DNA of 64,000 nt from Rhabdophis nuchalis. Taxonomy: Eukaryota; Chordata; Lepidosauria; Squamata; Natricidae. The notes beneath the pieces were generated by a model. The model was not told the origin of the DNA. It saw nothing but the letters and a program-made list of their open reading frames with translations, and ran no database searches. The DNA lies in assembly GCA_039707465.1 (NCBI GenBank), contig CM077644.1:220776962-220840961 (forward strand). The letters run 5' to 3'. This document shows positions 11,181 to 53,513 of this stretch, piece by piece. The position numbers and the translations under genes are program-made. How positions within the stretch are numbered: the stretch's first letter is position 1; each line of letters starts with the position of its first letter.

Positions 11181-11618
11181 CTACCCAAGGCCGGCCAAAC
11201 GGAAAAGATGAGTTTTTAATTTCAGACGGAAGGAGCGGAAGTCCGTGGTTGTTCTGATGTCGGGGGGAAGGTCGTTCCAGAGGGCTGGGCTCGCCACAGA
11301 GAGAGCCCTTCTCCTGGGCGTCGCCCGCTGACAGAGTCTAGTGGACGGCACCCGGAGAAGTCCCTCTCTGTGGGAGCGAATCGGCCGTGAGGATGTATGA
11401 GGCAGGATCCGATCCCGCAGATAGCTAGGTCCCGAGCCATGGAGCGCTTTAAAAATGATGACTAATACCTTGAAGCGCAACCGGAAGACGACAGGCAGCC
11501 AGTGCAACTCGCGCAGAAGTGGAGTTATGTGGGCAGATCTGGAGGTACCCAAGATTGCCCGCGCGGCTGCATTCTGAACCATCTGAAGTCTCCGGGTGCA
11601 CCTCAAGGGAAGCCCCAT
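11181..11618 (-). pseudogene. L2 LINE protein, C-terminal part in shifted frame
   Basis: This 145-codon frame continues the L2 protein after the 4-base loss near 11625. It holds the conserved tail motifs QNAAARAI, ELHWLPVVFRLRFKVL, RSHREGLLRVPS and LWNDLPPDI, ending in LKTHLF. This region follows the catalytic domain and is conserved among L2-type proteins. The same block is open at 42250-42687. Function of this copy depends on the upstream frame, so here it is a broken part. Confidence 0.9.
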
Positions 11619-14428
11619 GTAGAGTTACAATAGTCCAGTCGCGATGTCACGAGAGCATGAGTGACTGTGCGAAGGGCGTCCCGATCCAATAGGGGGCGCA
11701 ACTGGTGAACCAGGCGAACCTGGTAAAACGCCCTCCTGGCCACGGCTGTCACTTGATCTTCCATGGACAGCCGGGCATCCAGGAGGACACCCAGGTTGCG
11801 CGCCCCATCCACAGGGGCAAGATGTTCGCCCCCTATGGCCAGCGATGGAGTCAGCTGGTTGAATCGGGTAGCCGGAAACCACAGCCACTCGGTCTTCGTC
11901 GGGTTGAGCCTGAGTCTGTTACTTCCCATCCAGATCCGCACGGCTTCCAGGCACTGGCACATCACTGCTACGGCATCGTTGGGGTGGTTTGGGGTAGAAA
12001 TGTACAGCTGTGTATCATCAGCGTACAGGTGGTACTCTACCCCTAAACCACGGATGATCTCACCCAGCGGCTTCATATATGTGTTGAACAGGAGAGGCGA
12101 GAGGACCGACCCCTGAGGCACCCCACATGTGAGGGGTGTCGAGGTCGACCTCTGCTCTCCTGTCAACACAAATTGCGATCGGCCAGAGAGGTAGGAGGAG
12201 AACCACCGTAAAACGGTGCCTCCCACCCCCAACCCCCCCAGCCGATGCAATAGGATACCATGGTCGATGGTATCAAAAGCCGCCGAGAGGTCTAATAGGA
12301 CCAGGATGGAGGAACAACCCCCATCTCTGGCCCTCCAGAGATCATCAACCAACGCGACCAATGCCGTCTCAGTGCTATGCCCGGGCCGAAAGCCGGACTG
12401 GCGTGGGTCTAGATAATCAACTTCCTCCAGGTGACGGGGAAACTGTTGTGCCACCACACTCTCAACAACCTTCGCCAAAAAGGGAAGGTTGGAGACTGGA
12501 CGATAGTTGTTTAATAAAGCTGGGTCCAAAGAGGGCTTCTTAAGGAGGGGCCTCACCATCGCCTCTTTTAGGGAAGCAGGCAAGGAACCCTCACTTAAGG
12601 AAGCGTTGACAACCTCTTGGAGCCAGCCTCGTGTCACCTCCCAGGATGCCAGTACAAGCCAGGAGGGACACGGGTCCAATAAACATGTGGTGGCTCGCAG
12701 TCGCCCACGTAGCCTGTCCATATCCTCGGAAGTAACGGAGTCAAACTCCTCCCAAACAAGATCTGTCTCGTGGCATCCCACTGGGCCATCAATGGGGGCT
12801 AGCTCGTTCTGTATCTGAGCGATTTTCTCCTGCAGAAAAGTCACAAATTCCTTTGCTCTGCCCTGTAGCGGGGCTTCCCGCACCCTCTGTTGAAGGAGGG
12901 AGCGGGTCACCCTAAACAGGGCAGCAGGGCGGTTTTCTGCGGATGCTATGAGAGTGGCACAATGATGACGTTTGGCCACTCTCAGCGCCACAATGTAAGT
13001 CCGTAACTGGGCTCTTACTTGTGTCCGGTCAGATTCAGAACGGGTAGACCTCCATCTTCTCTCTAGGCATCTCTTGTGGCGTTTCATCCCCCTCAGCTCC
13101 TCGGTAAACCAAGGAGCCGGGGCGACTCGCCGCCGCAAGAGAGGCCGCAAGGGCGCGACCCGATCCAAGGCCCCCGTGGTCGAAGTGTTCCATGCGGCCA
13201 CGAGGTCCTCCATCGGGGCGCAGGTCAGGGGTACAGGAAGTGGCCCAAGCGCCGTCTGGAACCCATCCGGGTCCATAAGGCACCTGGGGCGAAACCAGAT
13301 CGATGGCTCTGGTTCCGCCTCCCTGCGGAGGGGAGTAGCGGTTGGAAAGTCGAGCCGGAGAAGTGAGTGGTCTGACCATGACAAGGACGTGATGACTATA
13401 TCCCCTATACCCAGATCACTCTTCCATTGGCCAGAGACAAAGATGAGATCCGGTGTATGTCCACCCTCGTGGGTGGGGCCTTGAATTAATTGGGTCAGGT
13501 CCATGGCCGTCATGGAAGCCATGAACTCCCGAGCTGCCACGGATGATTCGCCCACCGATGGCAGATTAAAGTCCCCCATGACCAAAAGTCTGGGGGTCTC
13601 AACTGCCACCGTAGCGATCACCTCCAGGAGCTCGGGCAGGGCTGCTGCTACATAGCGGGGAGCCAGGTATACAACCAGCAAGCCCAACTGCCTCCCTAGG
13701 CCCCACTTCACGCAGAGGGACTCACAACCGGTAGTCTGTGGCACAATGGTCTCTCTCGGCTCAAGATCTTCCTTTATTATGACCGCCACCCCACCACCCC
13801 TACCTAGGGCCCGGGGCTGATGAAAAGCACGGTAGCCTGGTGGGCACATTTCAACGAGGGGGAGTCCACCCTCGTGGCCCAACCAGGTCTCCGCTATTCC
13901 AGCCAGGTCCAGCTCCCCCTCTGACACAAGGTCATGGATGAGGGGGGCTTTGTTGACAATGGACCTGGCGTTACAAAACATCAGCCTCAGGCCCTGGCTC
14001 TGTATTCCCTGACCACCTAGCCTGCGGGGGTTGTGACACCTAACCGTTTGCAACCAACCGCTACGTGTCCCCAACCGGGAGGATGGAACTTGCCTCCCCT
14101 CGGACCTGCCTCTCCCCACGACCTTCTGAATGGAAATGCCCTCCGCAGGAACGACTCGTGTTTCTCCCCCCCTCACGGATTCTTCCGCTTCCCTCCGTCG
14201 CCTGTTGGCCTGGCCCTCTCTCTCTAACTGTACATACCCTCCCTCCTCCTCCCTGGAACCCCCTAAAACCCGCATTAAAAACCTCCCTAAAAACCCCCTC
14301 AACCTGCGCTTCGCCCACCTCTCAGGAATAATCAATCCGTCCTCGAGGTGGGCCCATGATAGACAGGGGGGCCAGGCCTGCGAGAGGGGAGACTCCCGCA
14401 GACCAAGGAGGTCGCGCCTAGAGTACAC
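11603..14428 (-). CDS. L2 LINE endonuclease/reverse transcriptase, main frame
   Basis: The 941-codon frame encodes the element's replication enzyme, which nicks target DNA and copies the element RNA at the nick. Residues 1-145 are a basic, low-complexity lead-in. Residues ~150-360 are an AP-type endonuclease with FCNARSIVNK (151-160), IAETWLG, GDFN (285-288) and SDH (352-354). Residues ~600-850 are the reverse transcriptase with DLSAAFD (713-719), GVPQGSVLSP (769-778) and the active site YADD (802-805). The frame ends early: relative to the copy at 53.06 kb, CTCT is missing near 11625, which shifts the frame. The last ~145 codons continue in another frame. The true start codon is uncertain. 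It may come from the leader because homology to the 51-kb copy begins only near residue 130. Confidence 0.9.
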   Translation of the reverse strand: MYSRRDLLGLRESPLSQAWPPCLSWAHLEDGLIIPERWAKRRLRGFLGRFLMRVLGGSREEEGGYVQLEREGQANRRRREAEESVRGGETRVVPAEGISIQKVVGRGRSEGRQVPSSRLGTRSGWLQTVRCHNPRRLGGQGIQSQGLRLMFCNARSIVNKAPLIHDLVSEGELDLAGIAETWLGHEGGLPLVEMCPPGYRAFHQPRALGRGGGVAVIIKEDLEPRETIVPQTTGCESLCVKWGLGRQLGLLVVYLAPRYVAAALPELLEVIATVAVETPRLLVMGDFNLPSVGESSVAAREFMASMTAMDLTQLIQGPTHEGGHTPDLIFVSGQWKSDLGIGDIVITSLSWSDHSLLRLDFPTATPLRREAEPEPSIWFRPRCLMDPDGFQTALGPLPVPLTCAPMEDLVAAWNTSTTGALDRVAPLRPLLRRRVAPAPWFTEELRGMKRHKRCLERRWRSTRSESDRTQVRAQLRTYIVALRVAKRHHCATLIASAENRPAALFRVTRSLLQQRVREAPLQGRAKEFVTFLQEKIAQIQNELAPIDGPVGCHETDLVWEEFDSVTSEDMDRLRGRLRATTCLLDPCPSWLVLASWEVTRGWLQEVVNASLSEGSLPASLKEAMVRPLLKKPSLDPALLNNYRPVSNLPFLAKVVESVVAQQFPRHLEEVDYLDPRQSGFRPGHSTETALVALVDDLWRARDGGCSSILVLLDLSAAFDTIDHGILLHRLGGLGVGGTVLRWFSSYLSGRSQFVLTGEQRSTSTPLTCGVPQGSVLSPLLFNTYMKPLGEIIRGLGVEYHLYADDTQLYISTPNHPNDAVAVMCQCLEAVRIWMGSNRLRLNPTKTEWLWFPATRFNQLTPSLAIGGEHLAPVDGARNLGVLLDARLSMEDQVTAVARRAFYQVRLVHQLRPLLDRDALRTVTHALVTSRLDYCNSTWGFP

Positions 14429-15194
14429 GATAAAACCTCAGGGTGGTTCCAAACCAGGAAGGCAAAAACACAAGTCCGAAATAAGTGGCTGAGTGCAGGA
14501 TGTTCTTTAGGATGGGGTGGGTGGGGGTAAAGTCAGAATCCAGAGTCTTATGGATGGGGGGGTCAAGTCCAATCCCATTACAGGCCCCATCCATCTGTCC
14601 TTCCGACCAAGGGGCTTAGTTCGTAACAGCCCTCTAATGGCCCAGATATTATCAGCCAGCCAGCCTCCACCAGTCCCGGGCACTCACTCCAAGATGTCCT
14701 GAAACGTCCTCGGCCAAATCCATCTTTTCCCAACTGGCTGCAGATGTTGCATGCCGGGCTGCTCCGCCAAACATGCCACTTTCAACCAGCCAATACTCCA
14801 TCTCCAACCTTCTCCTTCTTCTGCCAACTCCGTCCTCCATCATCAGCTCTTTCTTTCCATCGCCTCCAGCTCCTCGCCATCTCCGTCCATCTATCACCAT
14901 CCATCTCCATCCGTCTCTCTCTCACTCCGTCATTCCATCTCTCTTCCTCTCCATCTCTCTCTTTCGCCTTCTCCTCCTCCATCCCTTCTGCTTCCTCCAA
15001 CTCCTCAGCATTCCCATCATTCCATACCTCAACACCATCTCTCGTCCACCTTCTACTTTCTTCCACCCTTCCTCTCTCAGGAGCAGTCCTAGCCAGTGGG
15101 GGGTGGATGTTTCGGGCCCAGAACCAGGGTATGACCGCACGACCTGCCACTAGTCGTGCAGCCCGATGGTAGCTCTCCTGGCCTGGACCCCTGG

Positions 15195-37569: not shown

Positions 37570-37628
37570 CTCTATACCATTTCAGACAAATGCCTCTCCA
37601 ATGTTTTCTTAAAAACCACCAGTGATGG

Positions 37629-39618
37629 GGTTTCCGGTTCCGGCTCCAGCGGCGACGGGCGAGCCTAGCACTCGCTCGCCGCTTTGTTGCCTTTTCTGCC
37701 CTCCCACGGGGGCGAGACACTCCGGTCACCGGAGATCTCCCGTAGGGTCGGCTCGGAGGGGACGTTCCTCTTCACGGCGGTGGGGAGAACGGTCCCCTCT
37801 GCGACCTAGGTGAGAGGGAACATGCTGCGGGGGGTTTCCCCTTCACCAACGGCTGTCGGCGCCATTCATTTCAATGGAGAGGGCTGAGCGGAGAGATCGG
37901 AAGGCTTGCCGAGGCTTCAGCTGCGAGGGAGAGTGAGTTTAAAAAAAAACTTTTTTTCCTTGCTGCCAGCCAGGCTGAACGGACTGGGAGGGGGGTGTTT
38001 GTTTTAAAAAAAAAAACCCTCGGACTTAAGCGGCACTCTAAAATGGCTTCTCTGGAAGAGAAAGCGGAAATCTTCAACCCGGACTGTCTCTAACAAGGGA
38101 AAGTGGTATGCGGCTATTTGCAACATTGTTTCTAGGTCTGGCTGGATAAAAATTTTATTTTTCTACTCTCTCCTCTGGGCTCTGAGATGGGCGGTGGAAG
38201 GTGGCTTTTCTTTGTCCCTGCCTGACTATTTCAACTATGGAAAATTCCCAGCGTCTCTTTGCAATCGGGACTCTCTCTGGATATTAATGAAGAATTTTTC
38301 TCTTGCTGGATTTGTGATTTCTTTTCTGGAATACCTTCGCTATTATATTTACTGAGTTGGAATATTGTGTCTCTCTTGGTTCTTGAATTTTGCAACTTTA
38401 TAACCCTGAACTGAACTGAGCTCCTGATTTGCCTCACCAGCCCTACCCGGATAACGCCATTTTGGTGGCAGTGACTTTAACAATTAATCATGGCACAAGA
38501 AACAGCACTTGCAAGTTTAGAACAAAGGATGGCTTCTCTTGAATCTGTTATACAAACTTTAGTACAAGAAATCAAGGCCCAGAGGGCTGAAAATATTAAT
38601 TTCAAGAAGGAGCTACTGGATACACGGAAACAAGTGTTGGAGAATACACAGAAGAATGAAGAACTGGAAGGGGGGTTGGTGGGGGCTAAGGGAGAGATTA
38701 AAAATGTTACTAATGAGGTGGGGGAGATAAATGGGCATGTGTTTAGGATAGATATGGAAAGAATGACATATTTTTTGAGATTTCAGAATGTTTTTGAGCA
38801 ACCTGGTGAATTCCTCCCTGATCTTATGAGTACAATTTTAGCAGACTATTTACAAAAACCTAAAGATGAGATCAGGGGGGACATTGACCTGGCTTATAGA
38901 ATTAACTCAGCATATGCCAGGATAAATGTAGTGCCTAGAGAGATACATGTGAAATTTGTTAGAAGGTCAACCAGAGAGGAAATCTTGAAGGCGCAGAGAG
39001 AGAACCCTTTAATTTACCAACAAAAAACGGTCACTATCTTGAAGCAGATCCCTAAAAAGATTAGAGATGCAAGAAGGAAATTTTCCTTCTTGTCTAAAAC
39101 ATTGTTTGATCATGGGATCTGGTTCAAGTGGGTGACACCTGAAGGGATGCTGGTGTTCTGGGAAGGAGGAAGAGTGAGGATTAAAACAGTTGTAGAGGCG
39201 GAAGCCTTTCTTAAAAACATTCCTCTGCCCTGGGGGAAGATCCAGGGGGGATGGAGGGGGCCACGGCCCCGCCCGCTGGGGGCCAGGGAAGAGAAAAAGA
39301 AGATACAATAGCCAAGAGACTTAGATCGAAAAAATAACTTTGCCTTGATTTTTCTGAACAATTTTGCATAATATTTGTATCTGGATTTTTTGTAAATGTC
39401 TGACAGCATGGAACTGAGAATTTAGGTATATGTACTTGCTTTTACCTTGTAGTGTTATGAAAAATGTTTTTTTTTGTTATTTTTTTATTGTGTATTTTGA
39501 GGTCTCGGAAGGGCCGACGACTCTGACGTGAATGCTCTCAAAATTTCTTTGTATCCCTTACCCTACCCTATAGGAAAAATGTAAAACCAATAAAACTTTT
39601 TCAATATAAAAAAAAAAC
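37629..39618 (+). mobile_element. ORF1-only L1-type retrotransposon (HAL1-like)
   Basis: The 2.0-kb unit has a CpG-rich 5' leader (37629-38489), one intact L1 ORF1, and a 307-bp 3' region with AATAAA near 39588 and a short poly(A). It is flanked by the duplication CCACCAGTGATGG at 37616-37628 and 39619-39631, so both ends of the insertion are present. No ORF2 endonuclease or reverse transcriptase lies between the ORF1 stop and the poly(A). It would have to be mobilised by another L1. It resembles mammalian half-L1 (HAL1) in plan. Confidence 0.88.
38490..39311 (+). CDS. L1 ORF1p-like RNA-binding protein
   Basis: The 273-residue intact protein has the ORF1p plan. Residues 1-95 are a predicted coiled coil rich in L, E, Q and K with heptad spacing (LEQRMASLESVIQTL and on). 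Residues ~98-185 fit the RRM-like domain (MTYFLRFQNV, then EIHVKFVRRSTREEIL). Residues ~185-255 fit the C-terminal domain (IPKKIRDARRKF, WFKWVTPEGMLVFWEG, AEAFLKNI). The tail is G/R-rich and basic. ORF1p forms trimers that coat L1 RNA and chaperone nucleic acid. It is shorter than human ORF1p (338). The start is the first ATG after the leader, in a TCATGG context. No ORF2 follows. Confidence 0.88.
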   Translation: MAQETALASLEQRMASLESVIQTLVQEIKAQRAENINFKKELLDTRKQVLENTQKNEELEGGLVGAKGEIKNVTNEVGEINGHVFRIDMERMTYFLRFQNVFEQPGEFLPDLMSTILADYLQKPKDEIRGDIDLAYRINSAYARINVVPREIHVKFVRRSTREEILKAQRENPLIYQQKTVTILKQIPKKIRDARRKFSFLSKTLFDHGIWFKWVTPEGMLVFWEGGRVRIKTVVEAEAFLKNIPLPWGKIQGGWRGPRPRPLGAREEKKKIQ

Positions 39619-39795
39619 CCACCAGTGATGGAGCACAATTTCTGGAGGCAAGGTGTTTCACAAGGTGTTTCACTGATGACTTATTCTCATTGTCAGGAAA
39701 TTTCTCCTTATTCTAGGTTGGATATGTTTCCATCCGTTACTTTTTATTCTGCCCTCAAGGCCTTTGGGCAAAAGGTTAACCGCCTCATCTCTGTA

Positions 39796-46190: not shown

Positions 46191-47380
46191 TGTCAGTGTT
46201 CCGAAAAAGACCCAACTCCAATGTGGCAACGTGGAAGCTTCCGGGGATTAATAGGGCTTCCAAAGCTGACAACCTTTACATTGGAGCACATGATGTCTAC
46301 ACACCCCTACCAACTCAACCAATGATCATGAAGAAAAGGGGGGTAAGAACAATTAAATAAATTAATTAACATGCTACTATTTTTTCAAATTTTTTTGGGT
46401 CAATCCCGCCAATCAATTCTATAGCTAATATAACCCCTATTGTGAAATTTAATAAATAAGGCACAAATGTAAATGATTCAACTTTCTATTACATTTTGCT
46501 TTTGCAATTTTAGTTAAACATAATACATCTCTCGTTACAATGATTCCTCTGTACTGATCTGGGTGAAATAGTTATTTTTCCGCTTTATTGAAAATGACAT
46601 TTAGGTTTAATGTGGTCATACAAAGTACAAAAAGGGTGAATGAGAGGACAGAACTTACCCATCAGATAAATTGCTGGCCCTCTTTTGTTATTTGGAGAAA
46701 ATGTCATTTTTCAGACATTAACGGTAACTGACATACAATTCTTTGCGTGTGGAGAAAGCTAGAAAGAACAGGAAGGATCGGATTTGTTTCCAAACTCCTA
46801 AATAAATAATAATAATAAAAAATAACTAAAAATAAAATAAGGGAAACAATAAAAGATAGGAGGGAGAAGTGGTTCTATAAAAATTTATTTTTCACTAAAA
46901 TACATATACTGTAAAGAACAATCCATAAATAAACTTATCATGACCAGCGGTGGGGAAATCGCATATTACTACCCAGAAAACTATATGGGTGTCCATAAAA
47001 TCACCAGATATTCAGTTTGAATAAGACACTGCTTTTTTAAATAGCTTTGTTGGAATCAATTAAATTTCCTTCTCCCTCCCTCCCTCCCTCCCTCAAAAAG
47101 GAAAAAAAAGGAAGGTTTTCCAGTCAGGATGCTAATTTTTTTTAAAAAAAGAAATAGCTTAACACCAAATGAATAGATATAGCATGTCTGGCTCAGGAAT
47201 TCTGGGAGTTGAAGTCCACATGTCATAATGCTGCCCTCATTGCCCACTGCTATACTGTAAACAGAGTTTGGTAAAATTTGGTGGCATACAGATCTCTGTA
47301 GAACAATAAACACATAACTCTTTAGACTCTTTAAACTAGAATATAACATAGGGGTTATAAGTTATTGTTTTTATTTTACG
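46191..47380. other. No recognisable gene
   Basis: AT-rich. A short (CTCC)n run lies at 47070-47094. A piece near 47190-47250 (GGAATTCTGGGAGTTGAAG) looks like a dispersed reptile repeat, but I cannot bound it. Confidence 0.45.
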
Positions 47381-48366
47381 CTAGCCGTTCCCGGCCACGC
47401 GTTGTGTGGCCCAGGCTGGTTAAATGGCCAACTAATCTGTGGGTAAATCTACACCTGCACACACAAACACGTACACACAACCACCATATAACCCCCAACC
47501 TACCTACCTACCGTATTTCTCCCTCTCCCTCTCTATCCCTCTACCTACCTACCTACCTACCTACCTACCTACCTACCTTCCTACCTACCTACCTACCTAC
47601 CTTCCTACCTACCTACTGTATTTCTCCCTCTCTCTATCCCTCTACCTACCTACCTACCTACCTACCGTATTTCTCCCTCTCTCTATCCCTCTACCTATCT
47701 ACCTATCTACCTACTGTATTTCTCCCTCTCTCTATCCACCACCTACCGACCTACCTACCTTCCTACCTTCCTACCTACTGTATTTCTCCCTCTCTCTATC
47801 CCTCTACCTACCTACCTACCTACCTACCTACCTACCTACCTACCTACCTACCTACTGTATTTCTCCCTCTCTCTATCCCTCTACCTATCTACCTACTGTA
47901 TTTCTCCCTCTCTCTATCCACCACCTACCGACCTACCTACCTTCCTACCTTCCTACCTACTGTATTTCTCCCTCTCTCTATCCCTCTACCTACCTACCTA
48001 CCTACCTACCTACTGTATTTCTCCCTCTCTCTATCCACCTACCTACCTACCTACCTACCTACCTACCTACTTACCTACTGTATTTCTCCCTCTCTCTATC
48101 CACCACCTACCGACCGACCGACCGACCGACCGACCGACCGACCGACCTACCTACCGACCTACCTACCTACCTACCTACCTACCTACCTACCTACCTACCT
48201 ACCTACCTACCTACCTACCTACCTACTTACCTACTGTATTTCTCCCTCTATCCACCTACCTACCTACCTACCTACCTACCTACCTACCTACCTACCTACC
48301 GCATTTCTCCTTCCCTCTCTCTATACCTATAGCTGCCTACCTACCTACCTACTGTATTTCTCCTTG
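47381..48366 (-). mobile_element. Helitron-like element filled by a minisatellite
   Basis: On the minus strand the 3' end is the hairpin GGCCAC...GTGGCC (47393-47411), then GGGAACGG and CTAG (47381-47384). The ~120 bp next to it match 870-970 in reverse complement. The rest is a CTAC-based minisatellite. The base after CTAG is C where T is expected, and the 5' TC end is not clearly seen, so the upper limit is approximate. No Rep/helicase is encoded. Confidence 0.6.
47506..48366 (-). repeat. CTAC-rich higher-order minisatellite
   Basis: Thirteen conserved cores (CTGTATTTCTCCCTC, then a TCTCTATCC segment) are separated by CTAC runs of varying length. A block with CCACCACCTACCGACC occurs twice in the same context (from ~47735 and ~47918). 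A CGAC expansion lies at 48111-48147. The Tyr-Leu-Pro-Thr frame of 347 codons is an artefact. Confidence 0.93.
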
Positions 48367-48852
48367 AATCTTATTCCTATTTTAATTCCTATTTTAAAAA
48401 AAATCTGAAAATAATATGCAGAACAAATGCGGGAGTTTAGGCCTTCAGAAATCCCAGATGCCACCCTCATTTGAGACAAGTTGCTCATTAGAGGAATTGT
48501 GTGCCCAAATAAACAAGATTTAAAGTATGGTCTAGGCATCCAATACAAGAATTTGACATGAGAATTGCTTAGGCTATTCTGCTGATTATTTTTTTGAAAT
48601 AACATAATCAAAATCTTGCTTTCCTCTTTGGCTCTAATTATAACAAATTGTAGACAGTGATTATTAAGTGGTCTCACCAAGCTTTCCTTATCTACAGTGA
48701 TCTGCGCTGCATAACACAATCTCCTTAATAGACAATTGGAGTTACTGATGTTCATCATGTTGTCCTTTCCCAGTGTTGTAACATATTATTGTGGTTGTCC
48801 TAGTGTGCTAAATACATTATCTGAACATTCTTGTCTCTGCAAAGGCAGAGTC
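48367..48852. other. No recognisable feature
   Basis: AT-rich. A 137-codon minus-strand frame (48345-48758) has no recognisable domain and partly reads the minisatellite edge. Confidence 0.45.
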
Positions 48853-49106
48853 CAGTGGTTGGAGTCAATTTTTTTTACTACCAGTTCTGTGGGCATGGCT
48901 TGGTAGGTATGGTGTGGCTTGGTGGACGTGGCAGGGGAAGGTTATTGCAAAATCCCCATTTCCTCCCAATCAGCTGGGACTCAGGAGGCAGAGAAGAGAT
49001 GGTGGCGGGGCCAGTCAGAAGTGGTATTTCCTGGTTCTCTGAACTACCTAAATTTTCTGCTACCAGTTCTCCAGAACTTGTCAGAACCTGCTGAATGCCA
49101 CCTCTG
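48853..49106. mobile_element. hAT-type MITE (CAGTGGTGGGATTCA family)
   Basis: Begins CAGTGGTTGGAGTCAATTTT and ends GCTGAATGCCACCTCTG. The flanks GCAGAGTC and GCACAGAT match at six of eight. The interior matches 21329-21610. Confidence 0.83.
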
Positions 49107-49125
49107 GCACAGATCTTGCTGGGTA

Positions 49126-49520
49126 CAAGTAGTCCTTGACTTTTGACCACAATTGAGCCCAAAATATTTGTTGCTAAGTGAAACATTTGTTGGGTGAGCT
49201 TTGCCTCATTTTACATCCTTTCTTGCCACAGTTGTTAAATGAATCACAGCATTTGATAAGTTAGCAACCTGGTTGTTAAATGAATCTGGTTCTACATTGA
49301 CTGTTTGTCAGAAGGTTGCAAAAGGTGATCACAAAAGCTTGAGACGCAGCAACAGTCAAAAGTATGAGCCAGTTGCCAAGCATGTGAATTTTGATCATGT
49401 GATCATGGAGATGCTGAAAAGGTTGTAAACTGAAAAAACCTTTGTTTTTCACTTTTTTCAGTGCCATTGTAAGTTTGAATGGTCACTAAATAAATTGTTG
49501 TAAGTCGAGGACAGGCCCTG
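49126..49520. mobile_element. Mariner-like MITE (CAGGTAGTC family)
   Basis: Begins CAAGTAGTCCTTGAC after TA and contains the GTTGCTAAGTGAAACA and GATCATGTGATCATGG blocks. The right end (GTAAGTCGAGGAC) is followed by altered sequence, so the limit is approximate. Confidence 0.8.
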
Positions 49521-50154
49521 TTCTGATGTGAATATTTTTGTTCCTGTATAACTTACCTACATAAAGTTTACCTTATGACTTACGGTATTTTTCAAAGTAT
49601 AAGACGCACCTTTTTTCCTCTAAAAAGAGGCTGAAAATCTGGGTGCGTCTTATACATCAAATACAGCATTTTTTGCCTCCTGGAACCCCGCCCCTTCACC
49701 AAACTGGCTATGCCTAGCCTTATGGAGGCTTCCAGAGAGCTCCTGGGGGCTGGGGAGGGCAGAAATTAGCCTCAAACGGGCCGGTTTCCCCCCCCCCCCA
49801 GCCCCCAGCAGCACTTTATAAGTCTCCATAAGGCTATGCATGAAATTTATTTGACACAAAAATGGCCCGTTTTCAAGATAAATGGGCCGGTTTTTTGCTC
49901 ATTTTTGACCCCCCCGCCCCCCAGGAGCACTCTGCACACACACACCCCACTCTGCAAGGCTAAACATGTTTTTTATTTGAAAAAATAATGGCCCCGTTTT
50001 CACAGAGAAACTGGCTGTTTGGGGGAGGTTTGCAGACTGCAAAAGGGTTTTCCCCCCCTGCTCTTTAACTGTTTCTATGCCAGCAGAAACAAAATCTTAA
50101 GGTTTGTCAGTGATTTCCTTCTGCAGGACATGGATAAATACACCTGGAAACATC

Positions 50155-50549
50155 AACCTACCTACCTACTCTCTCTCTCTCTCTACCTACCTACTGTATT
50201 TCTCTCTCTCTCTCTCTCCCCTCTCTATCCTTCTAACTACCTACCTACCACCTACACACACACACACACTCCCTACCTGCCTACTGTATTTCTCTCTCTC
50301 TCTCTCTCTCTCCCCTTCTACCTACCTACACACACACACATACACTCTCCCTACCTATCTACTGTATTTCTCTTTCTCTATTCTCTCTCTCTCTCTTCCT
50401 TTATCTACCTACCTACCTACACACACTCTCTCCACCTACCTACCTACTGTATTTCTCTCTCTCTCTTTCTATTTCTCTCTCTATCTTTCTCTCTCTATCT
50501 TTCTACCTATCTACCTACACATTCTATCTCTCTCCCTACTTACCTACTG

Positions 50550-50611
<62 letters not shown>

Positions 50612-50616
50612 TTTAG
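50155..50616. repeat. CTAC/CT-rich minisatellite, left part
   Basis: CTAC runs alternate with the CTGTATTTCTCTC core (six cores) and CT or CA runs, ending in (CT)n at 50556-50607. The array is cut by the L2 and resumes at 53790. Frames across it are artefacts. Confidence 0.92.
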
Positions 50617-50710
50617 CTACCTGGCGCGCGGCCGTTGGTTAAAAACGGTCGGGCGCCACAACCCCCGCAAACTAGGTGGTCAGGAAGTACAGAGCCAGGG
50701 CCTGCGGCTG

Positions 50711-53513
50711 ATGTTTTGCAATGCCAGGTCCGTTGTCAACAAGGCCCCCCTCATTAGTGACCTTCTGTCAGAGGGGGACCCGGACCTGGCCGGAATAGCG
50801 GAGACCTGGTTGGGCCACGAGGGAGGACTCCCCCTCGTTGAAATGTGCCCACCAGGCTACCGTGCTTTTCATCAGCCGCGGGCCCTAGGCAGGGGTGGTG
50901 GGGTAGCGGTCATTGTAAAAGAAGGTCTTGAGGCGAGAGAGACCATTGTGCACAGACTACCGGTTGTGAGTCCCTCTGCGTGAAGTGGGGCCTAGGGAGG
51001 CAGTTGGGCTTGCTGGTTGTATACCTGGTTCCCGCTATGTAGCAGCAGCCCTGCCCGAGCTCCTCGAGGTGATCACTACGGTGGCAGTGGAGACCCCCAG
51101 ACTTTTAGTCATGGGGGACTTTAATCTGCCATTGGTGGGCGAATCATCCGAGGTAGCTCGGGAGTTCATGGCTTCCATGACGGCCATGGACCTGACCCAA
51201 GTAATTCAAGGCCCCACTCACGAGGGTGGACATACACCGGATCTCATCTTTGTCTCAGGCCAATGGAAGAGTGATCTGGGTATAGGGGATATAGTCATCA
51301 CGCCCTTGTCATGGTCAGACCACTCACTTCTCCGCCTCGACTTTCCGACCGCTGCTCCCCTCCGCGGGGAGGCGGAACCAGAGTCTCCAATCTGGTACCT
51401 CCCCAGGCGCCTGATGGACCCGGATGGGTTCCAGACGGCGCTTGGGCCATTTCATGTATCCCTGACCCATGCCCCGATGGAGGACCTCACGGCCGCATGG
51501 AATAGTGCAGCCGTGGGAGCCTTGGATCGGGTCGCGCCCTTGCGGCCTCTCGTGCGGCGGCGAAACACCCAGGCCCCTTGGTTTACTGAGGAGCTGAGGG
51601 TGATGAAACACCGCAAGAGATGCCTAGAGAGAAGATGGAGGTCTACCCGATCTGGATCTGACCGGACACAGGTAAGAGCCCATTTACGGACTTACATTGT
51701 GGCGCTGAGAGTGGCCAAACGCCATCATTGTGCCACTCTCACAGCATCCGCAGACAACCGCCCTGCCGCCCTGTTTAGGGTGACCCGCTCCCTCCTTCAA
51801 CAGAGGGTGTGGGAAGCCCCGTTACAGGGTAGAGCAGAGGAATTTGTGACTTTTCTGCAGGAGAAAACCGCTCAGATACAGAACGAGTTAGCCCCCATTC
51901 ATGGCCCAGTGAGATGCCACGAGGGAGATCTTGTTTGGGAGGAGTTTGACTCCGTTACTTCCGAAGATATGGACAGGTTACGTGGGCGACTGCGAGCCAC
52001 CACATGTTTACTGGACCCGTGTCCCTCCTGGCTTGTACTGGCATCCTGGGAGGTGACACGAGGCTGGCTCCAAGAGGTTGTCAATGCTTCCTTGAGTGAG
52101 GGTTCCTTGCCTGCTTCCCTAAAAGAGGCGATGGTGAGGCCCCTCCTTAAGAAGCCCTCTTTGGATCCAGCTCTTTTAAACAACTATCGTCCTGTCTCCA
52201 ACCTTCCCTTTTTGGCGAAGGTTGTCGAGAGTGTGGTGGCACAACAGTTTCCCCGTCACCTGGATGAAGTTGATTATCTAGATCCGCGCCAGTCCGGCTT
52301 TCGGCCCGGGCATAGCACCGAGACGGCATTGGTCGCGTTGGTGGATGATCTCTGGAGGGCCAGAGATGGGGGTTGTTCCTCCATCCTGGTCCTATTAGAC
52401 CTCTCGGCGGCTTTCGATACCATCGACCATGGTATCCTATTGCATCGGCTGGGGGGGTTGGGGGTGGGAGGCACCGTTTTGCGGTGGTTCTCCTCCTACC
52501 TCTCTGGCCGATCGCAATTTGTGTTGGCAGGGGGGCAGAGGTCGACCGCGAGACCCCTCATATGTGGGGTGCCTCAGGGGTCGGTCCTCTCGCCCCTCCT
52601 GTTTAACACATACATGAAGCCGCTGGGTGAGATCATCCGTGGTTTTGGGGTAGAGTACCATCTATACGCTGACGACACCCAGCTGTATATATCTACCCCA
52701 GACCACCCCAACGATGCCGTAGCGGTGATGTGCCAGTGCCTGGAAGCCGTGCGGATCTGGATGGGAAGTAACGGACTCAAGCTAAACCCGACCAAGACCG
52801 AGTGGCTGTGGTTTCCGGCTGCCCGATTCAACCAGCTCACTCCATCGCTGGCCATAGGGGGCGAACATCTTGCCCCTGTGGATGGGGCGCGCAATTTGGG
52901 TGTCCTCCTGGATACCCGGCTGTCAATGGAAGATCAGGTGACAGCCGTGGCCAGGAGGGCGTTTTACCAGGTTCGCCTGGTACGCCAATTGCGCCCCCTA
53001 TTGGATCGGGACGCCCTTCGCACAGTCACTCATGCCCTCGTGACATCCCGACTGGACTATTGCAACTCTCTCTACATGGGGCTTCCCTTGAGGTGCACCC
53101 GGAGACTTCAGCTAGTCCAGAATGCAGCCGCGCGAGCAATTATGGGTACCACAAGGTACACCCATGTAACACCGCTCTTGCGCGAGCTGCACTGGCTGCC
53201 TGTCGTCTTCCGGGTGCGCTTCAAGGTATTAATTATCATCTTTAAAGCGCTCCATGGCTCGGGACCTAGCTACTTGCGGGATCGGATCCTGCCTCATACA
53301 TCCTCACGACCGATTCGCTCCCACAGAGAGGGACTTCTCCGGGTGCCGTCCACTAGACTCTGTCAGCGGGCGACACCCAGGGGAAGGGCTCTCTCTGTGG
53401 CGGGCCCAGCCCTCTGGAACGACCTCCCTCACGATATTAGGACCACCACGGACCTCTGCTCCTTCCGTCTTAAATTGAAAACACACTTTTTCTGCCTTGC
53501 TGGCCTGGGATAG
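50711..53513 (+). pseudogene. L2 LINE endonuclease/reverse transcriptase with two 1-base losses
   Basis: The first piece (50711-~50949) has MFCNARSVVNKAPL and IAETWLGHEGG. Relative to the minus-strand copy, one C is missing near 50950 and another near 51031, so the frame is shifted twice within ~80 bp. From ~51032 to 53513 the frame is open: GDFNLP, SWSDHSLL, DLSAAFD, GVPQGSVLSP, YADDTQLY and the C-terminal WNDLP, ending LAGLG. All visible endonuclease and reverse-transcriptase motifs are conserved. The protein cannot be made as one chain. The open frame's first ~15 codons (50985-51031) are out-of-frame sequence. Confidence 0.92.

Follow-up and report, generated by a model that had tools for sequence, protein, structure and literature searches.

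The window, the whole 64-kb stretch of DNA that was analysed, contains a 1,990-bp (~2.0-kb) insertion at 37629-39618, read on the forward strand and located on contig C2 of the 1.918-Gb assembly. The insertion is bracketed by exact 13-bp direct repeats of CCACCAGTGATGG, with the 5' target-site duplication copy at 37616-37628 and the 3' copy at 39619-39631, exactly as the first-pass annotation had described for a 13-bp target duplication enclosing both the leader and the poly(A). The repeat occurs twice in the window, where 0.01 occurrences would be expected, and none of 100 shuffles reached two; with one mismatch allowed, it lengthens to 18 nt and begins inside an A run. The bases directly before the 5' copy read TTAAAAA, which we take to be an L1-endonuclease-like context. 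A nucleotide search of the 64-kb window returned no second copy of the element.

The element opens with a 5'UTR (37629-38489, + strand), and the first ~270 nt of this region are CpG-rich. Over 37629-37900 the G+C content is 65% and the CpG observed/expected ratio 0.93, compared with 0.23 and 0.11 in the flanks, indicating little CpG loss. At the other end, an A/T-rich stretch follows the ORF1 frame of the window copy and carries AATAAA near its end and a poly(A) run. Both the CpG-rich leader and the 3' region with AATAAA and poly(A) had been recognized at first pass, and both are present. ORF2, which with its endonuclease and reverse transcriptase defines an autonomous L1, is absent from the 2.0-kb element. 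Elsewhere in the window, two long frames read by translation like the endonuclease/reverse transcriptase of CR1-type LINEs (944 codons at 11603-14437 on the minus strand and 847 codons at 50970-53513 on the plus strand), and the second of these is preceded by long simple repeats coding for YLPT/LSLS (47347-50642), possibly an expanded tandem repeat.

From its ATG, the window copy has a frame of 273 codons (38490-39311), which the first-pass annotation had called an intact ORF1. That frame exists, but it is not intact. The ORF1 of the family to which the element belongs has 282 codons and ends with a TAA at 39335-39337, and the window frame departs from it after about residue 242, owing to a length difference in an A-run near 39211-39216; the last ~31 residues of the window frame are foreign to the family. 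The part that remains in the family frame (38490-39215, + strand) is predicted to encode a long helix followed by the L1 RRM/C-terminal region up to about residue 242. The rest of the family frame (39217-39337, + strand) leads to the tail ...EDTIAKRLRSKK, which ends ORF1 in P0001 (a homologous fragment from public data) and in most sibling copies; the window copy encodes this tail in a different frame. The window copy is one decayed, frameshifted member of the family. The 3'UTR (39338-39618, + strand) is joined directly to the family stop codon, placing the ORF1/3'UTR join at 39337/39338, within the interval of ~39312-39340 predicted for it beforehand.

The join occurs in thousands of places. 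At up to three mismatches, a 26-mer spanning it matches the genome 7,540 times (backward control, 1) and a 26-mer from the ORF1 end 16,354 times (backward control, 0); a 30-mer from the 3' end has 10,412 genome matches (control, 1). These counts include segmental duplicates. The join count is less than half of the ORF1-end count. This shortfall is probably due to A- and T-runs in the join, whose length varies and which an ungapped search misses, and 7,540 is therefore a lower bound. The first-pass annotation had proposed the sharing of the ORF1-to-3'UTR junction as the test for a family. The junction is not confined to one locus, nor do all relatives carry ORF2 at that point.

The loci read individually are exact matches on contig C1, picked in the order of the listing, which biases them towards young, window-like copies; the places listed for all three patterns (at least 100 each) lie on C1, and only the total counts are genome-wide. 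Among 30 loci picked by the ORF1 end, 29 run unbroken from ORF1 through the stop codon and a 3'UTR of the window type to the 3' end, and in the exception (L030) the match to the element gives way to unrelated DNA some 8 nt past the start of the 3'UTR. The 100 places listed for the 3'-end pattern provided a first set of 30 loci, overlapping in part with the ORF1-end set, and 58 that were added later, whereas 12 were omitted for having an adjacent ORF1-end match. The join is carried by 29 of the first 30 and by 52 of the further 58; five of the six remaining loci among the latter start within the 3'UTR or shortly ahead of the join (two of the five, L108 and L111, are identical across the 500 bases read), and one is rearranged. 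Altogether, the join is present in 81 of the 88 3' ends read; another 6 show truncation or rearrangement, and 1 is nested in another L1. No ORF2 follows an ORF1 of this half-L1 type among the 30 ORF1 ends, no ORF2 belonging to the element itself was seen among the 88 3' ends (6 of them too truncated or rearranged to tell), and the ORF2 end peptide has no match at E up to 1 in the 58 further 3'-end loci. At L138, a half-L1 3' end is joined to what by eye seems to be part of its own leader in inverted orientation, an arrangement expected of twin priming.

Identity to the window copy ranges from 84% to 98% among the loci. In an alignment of the window copy with 16 loci of several subfamilies, the ORF1 stop is followed by the same 3'UTR start in every sequence. 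Several subfamilies share one join, which must therefore have formed before they diverged. This bears on the simpler alternative offered at first pass, that one L1 RNA underwent an internal deletion and produced the window copy and nothing else. Such an event is a general possibility, and the window copy is itself broken, but the join is matched thousands of times, and the loci that carry it occupy distinct sites whose target duplications differ. The shared join refutes a single deletion, to which we give virtually no credence, and supports the HAL1-like family (HAL1 being the mammalian half-L1) that had been proposed in the first place.

Because some loci share flanks, raw locus counts overstate the number of insertions. 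Flank comparison reduces 60 loci to 40 groups (22 groups among the first 30 loci and 24 among the second 30); some locus pairs represent the same place caught by both patterns, and others are segmental duplicates. Counts by insertion refer to 41 insertion groups, obtained from the 40 flank groups by splitting two loosely joined ones (79-88% identity) by hand and omitting L045; one of the two splits is backed by differing target duplications. The join is present in 40 of the 41 flank-distinct groups, and the exception breaks just inside the 3'UTR.

Nineteen loci (L070-L088), a non-random draw from the 30 ORF1-end loci and all on C1, were read with their flanks and represent 12 distinct sites. 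The usual rule for LINE copies is 5' truncation; the full-length share in this set is high (16 of the 19 loci and 10 of the 12 sites), with 16 of the 19 starting no more than 4 nt from the start of the window element. The flanks share ends of 10-20 nt at the 12 sites, compared with maxima of 7-14 nt for shuffled flanks. The weakest target duplication is that of L070 (10 nt, where shuffled flanks reach 9), and a chance match into the poly(A) tail can lengthen an apparent duplication. When the window is added to the 12 sites, the raw counts are 8 of 13 duplications with AA as their first bases and 5 of 13 with TT directly before them, a context that presumably fits the motif of an L1-type endonuclease. 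The marks of retrotransposition, namely a poly(A) tail and target duplications, are present in the window copy and at the 12 distinct sites. Several of the C1 loci are segmental duplicates with the same flanks and the same duplication (L071/L079/L087, L076/L078/L088, L070/L072, L075/L077, and L074/L081).

The first two of these sets are examples of what would be seen if most copies had arisen as satellites or by segmental duplication from a handful of insertions rather than by retrotransposition, and the placement on C1 of every listed position (at least 100 per pattern) points the same way. Such an origin is nevertheless highly improbable given the 40 flank groups among 60 loci, the 12 distinct sites with differing duplications among the 19 loci read with flanks, and the divergence of the copies, which are 84% to 98% identical to the window element.

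A profile of 17 ORF1p sequences finds 13 proteins among the 7,991 candidates sharing most words, comprising two unnamed close fragments and several snake proteins (Ahaetulla, Pseudonaja, Erythrolamprus, Notechis, and Pituophis) among others. The named relatives are snake proteins at 32-42% identity. One of them, P0006, a snake protein named as an L1 RRM-domain protein, is found by the profile at 1e-39 and passes the Pfam L1 RBD model (PF02994; 23.5 bits against a cutoff of 22.4). It alone does so among the five relatives scanned, the other four missing the cutoff, and the family ORF1p itself is also below it (best E 0.052). The family ORF1p is L1-type indirectly, through P0006. All 19 invariant columns of a wider alignment fall between residues 96 and 217. 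A low-confidence model suggests a long, coiled-coil-like helix at about residues 2-60; the structure predictions have a mean pLDDT of 44 and are too poor to use, and PDB sequence searches gave two weak matches each, to a lamin and to a designed coiled coil.

The 282-codon frame is retained in 22 of the 41 insertion groups: 20 of these have 282 codons with MAQE at the start and RLRSKK at the end, and the remaining two (L047 and L063) have 282 codons starting with MDQE. The other 19 groups are truncated, broken, or of different length. Selection was measured on exact-match, intact-frame copies only, with dN/dS calculated for the 20 groups whose 282-codon frame from MAQE is intact. Mean dN/dS declines with distance: it is 0.41 for pairs with dS below 0.05 (22 pairs) and 0.24 for those with dS of 0.2-0.3 (64 pairs), as expected if neutral decay after insertion is superimposed on constrained change in the source elements. 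Fixed differences between a clade of 4 groups and the other 16 number 15 synonymous and 11 non-synonymous, at 185.7 synonymous and 660.3 non-synonymous sites, giving a between-clade omega of 0.21 (binomial p 8e-5 against neutrality), and both clades share the join. ORF1 has been under purifying selection after the join formed. The test for such selection suggested by the first-pass annotation thus has a positive outcome among copies with intact frames.

Two other explanations for the conserved ORF1 were weighed. The frames could be open merely through youth, in a half-L1 under no selection, and in a neutral simulation without indels 77% of frames do survive 1% substitution. Even with indels left out, however, 26% of frames survive 5% substitution and 13% survive 8%, and youth would not account for the omega of 0.21 obtained from fixed between-clade differences; we consider it very unlikely. 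The conservation could also be inherited, if subfamilies were repeatedly re-made from ORF1s of autonomous L1s recombining upstream of a fixed join, with the half-L1 itself having no need of ORF1. L1 elements are known to recombine in their leaders and ORF1s, and the ORF1s compared from this genome are those of half-L1 copies. Against this, the 16 aligned loci of several subfamilies share both the join and a colinear 3'UTR, and neither the 30 ORF1 ends nor the 88 3' ends gave an ORF2 of this element, with the 6 uninformative ends already mentioned. Inheritance by recombination is unlikely in our assessment, if less so than youth.

ORF2-bearing L1 sequence exists in the genome. A 36-mer from the ORF2 C-terminus of the L1 family of L045 and L147 gives counts of 25 and 191, the latter at up to three mismatches; it represents one L1 family and is a longer pattern than the ORF1 26-mer, so no copy-number ratio is drawn. 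Among the loci read, we found no full-length L1 with the half-L1 ORF1 or 3'UTR. At L147, an ORF2-bearing L1 end of which 390 bases were read, the 3'UTR differs from that of the half-L1. At L045, ORF2 C-terminal sequence is followed by a half-L1 3' end, and this locus was considered as an autonomous partner sharing the 3'UTR. It was rejected because the half-L1 tail there is nested in another L1: a 5'-truncated tail lies inside the L1 3'UTR, its flank is duplicated, and an L1 3'UTR of the L147 type resumes after it. A microhomology breakpoint was dropped along with that reading. As a separate observation, a 342-codon frame near the nested L1 (L069:6543-7571) reads like an exon of a V2R vomeronasal receptor. 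The first ~20 Mb of C1, where flank-sharing half-L1 copies and many matches to the ORF2 end are located, may be a duplicated receptor cluster.

The copies have the join and both ends in common, occupy separate target-duplicated sites, fall into several subfamilies, and show selection on ORF1. The family is best explained as a high-copy, non-autonomous, L1-derived family with the structure 5'UTR, ORF1 (282 codons), 3'UTR, and poly(A), that is, a HAL1-like half-L1 (probability about 0.9). It would have descended from an L1 by the loss of ORF2 and would be mobilised in trans by ORF2p. In the mechanism we propose, a full-length RNA would be transcribed from the CpG-rich 5' region, and the ORF1p translated from it would coat or bind its own RNA in cis. 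ORF2p made from the RNA of another, autonomous L1 would then act in trans, nicking an A-rich target and reverse-transcribing from the poly(A) tail. ORF1 may be retained because RNAs without a good ORF1p in cis would be copied less often.

We tentatively suggest, at somewhat less than even odds, that this half-L1 is an orphan. The L1 that donated its ORF1 and 3'UTR would be rare or extinct in this genome, and the ORF1-only lineage would have outlived it, with its own ORF1p selected and ORF2p supplied by an L1 with an unrelated 3'UTR. If the orphan reading is true, ORF1p, not the L1 3'UTR, would be what an RNA must carry in cis.

SINEs that depend on L1, such as Alu, require ORF2p in trans. The half-L1 would likewise rely on ORF2p in trans, but it is longer, derived from L1, and protein coding. 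It resembles squamate L1 elements in its ORF1p (27-40% identity to eight aligned relatives, several of them named snake proteins), its poly(A) end, and its target duplications, and differs from them in that the family lacks ORF2 and that L147, the one ORF2-bearing end compared, has another 3'UTR. PMC5753468 describes HAL1 as a non-autonomous mammalian L1 derivative that encodes only ORF1p and, with reference to Bao and Jurka 2010, attributes to it several independent origins among mammals. The family described here has the same plan of an ORF1-only, non-autonomous L1 derivative; its host, in contrast, is a squamate, probably a snake, and its ORF1p is nearest to snake L1 ORF1p. Since snake L1 proteins are the closest to this ORF1p of all those found, we take the family to be HAL1-like and probably of separate origin from mammalian HAL1. 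Among the open-literature matches listed, no squamate half-L1 appears in the titles or abstract openings, although a Repbase entry may exist, and the term 'ORF1' is absent from PMC8303610 and PMC6050309.

A large squamate family with the HAL1 plan would represent an independent origin of that plan and would offer a natural test of the features that an RNA needs in order to use the L1 enzyme. Purifying selection on ORF1 in the absence of an ORF2 points to ORF1p acting in cis on the RNA that encodes it, even where ORF2p is foreign, and such cis action bears on the long-standing question of L1 cis preference. With thousands of copies and several subfamilies, the family makes this testable by genome comparison and cell assays.
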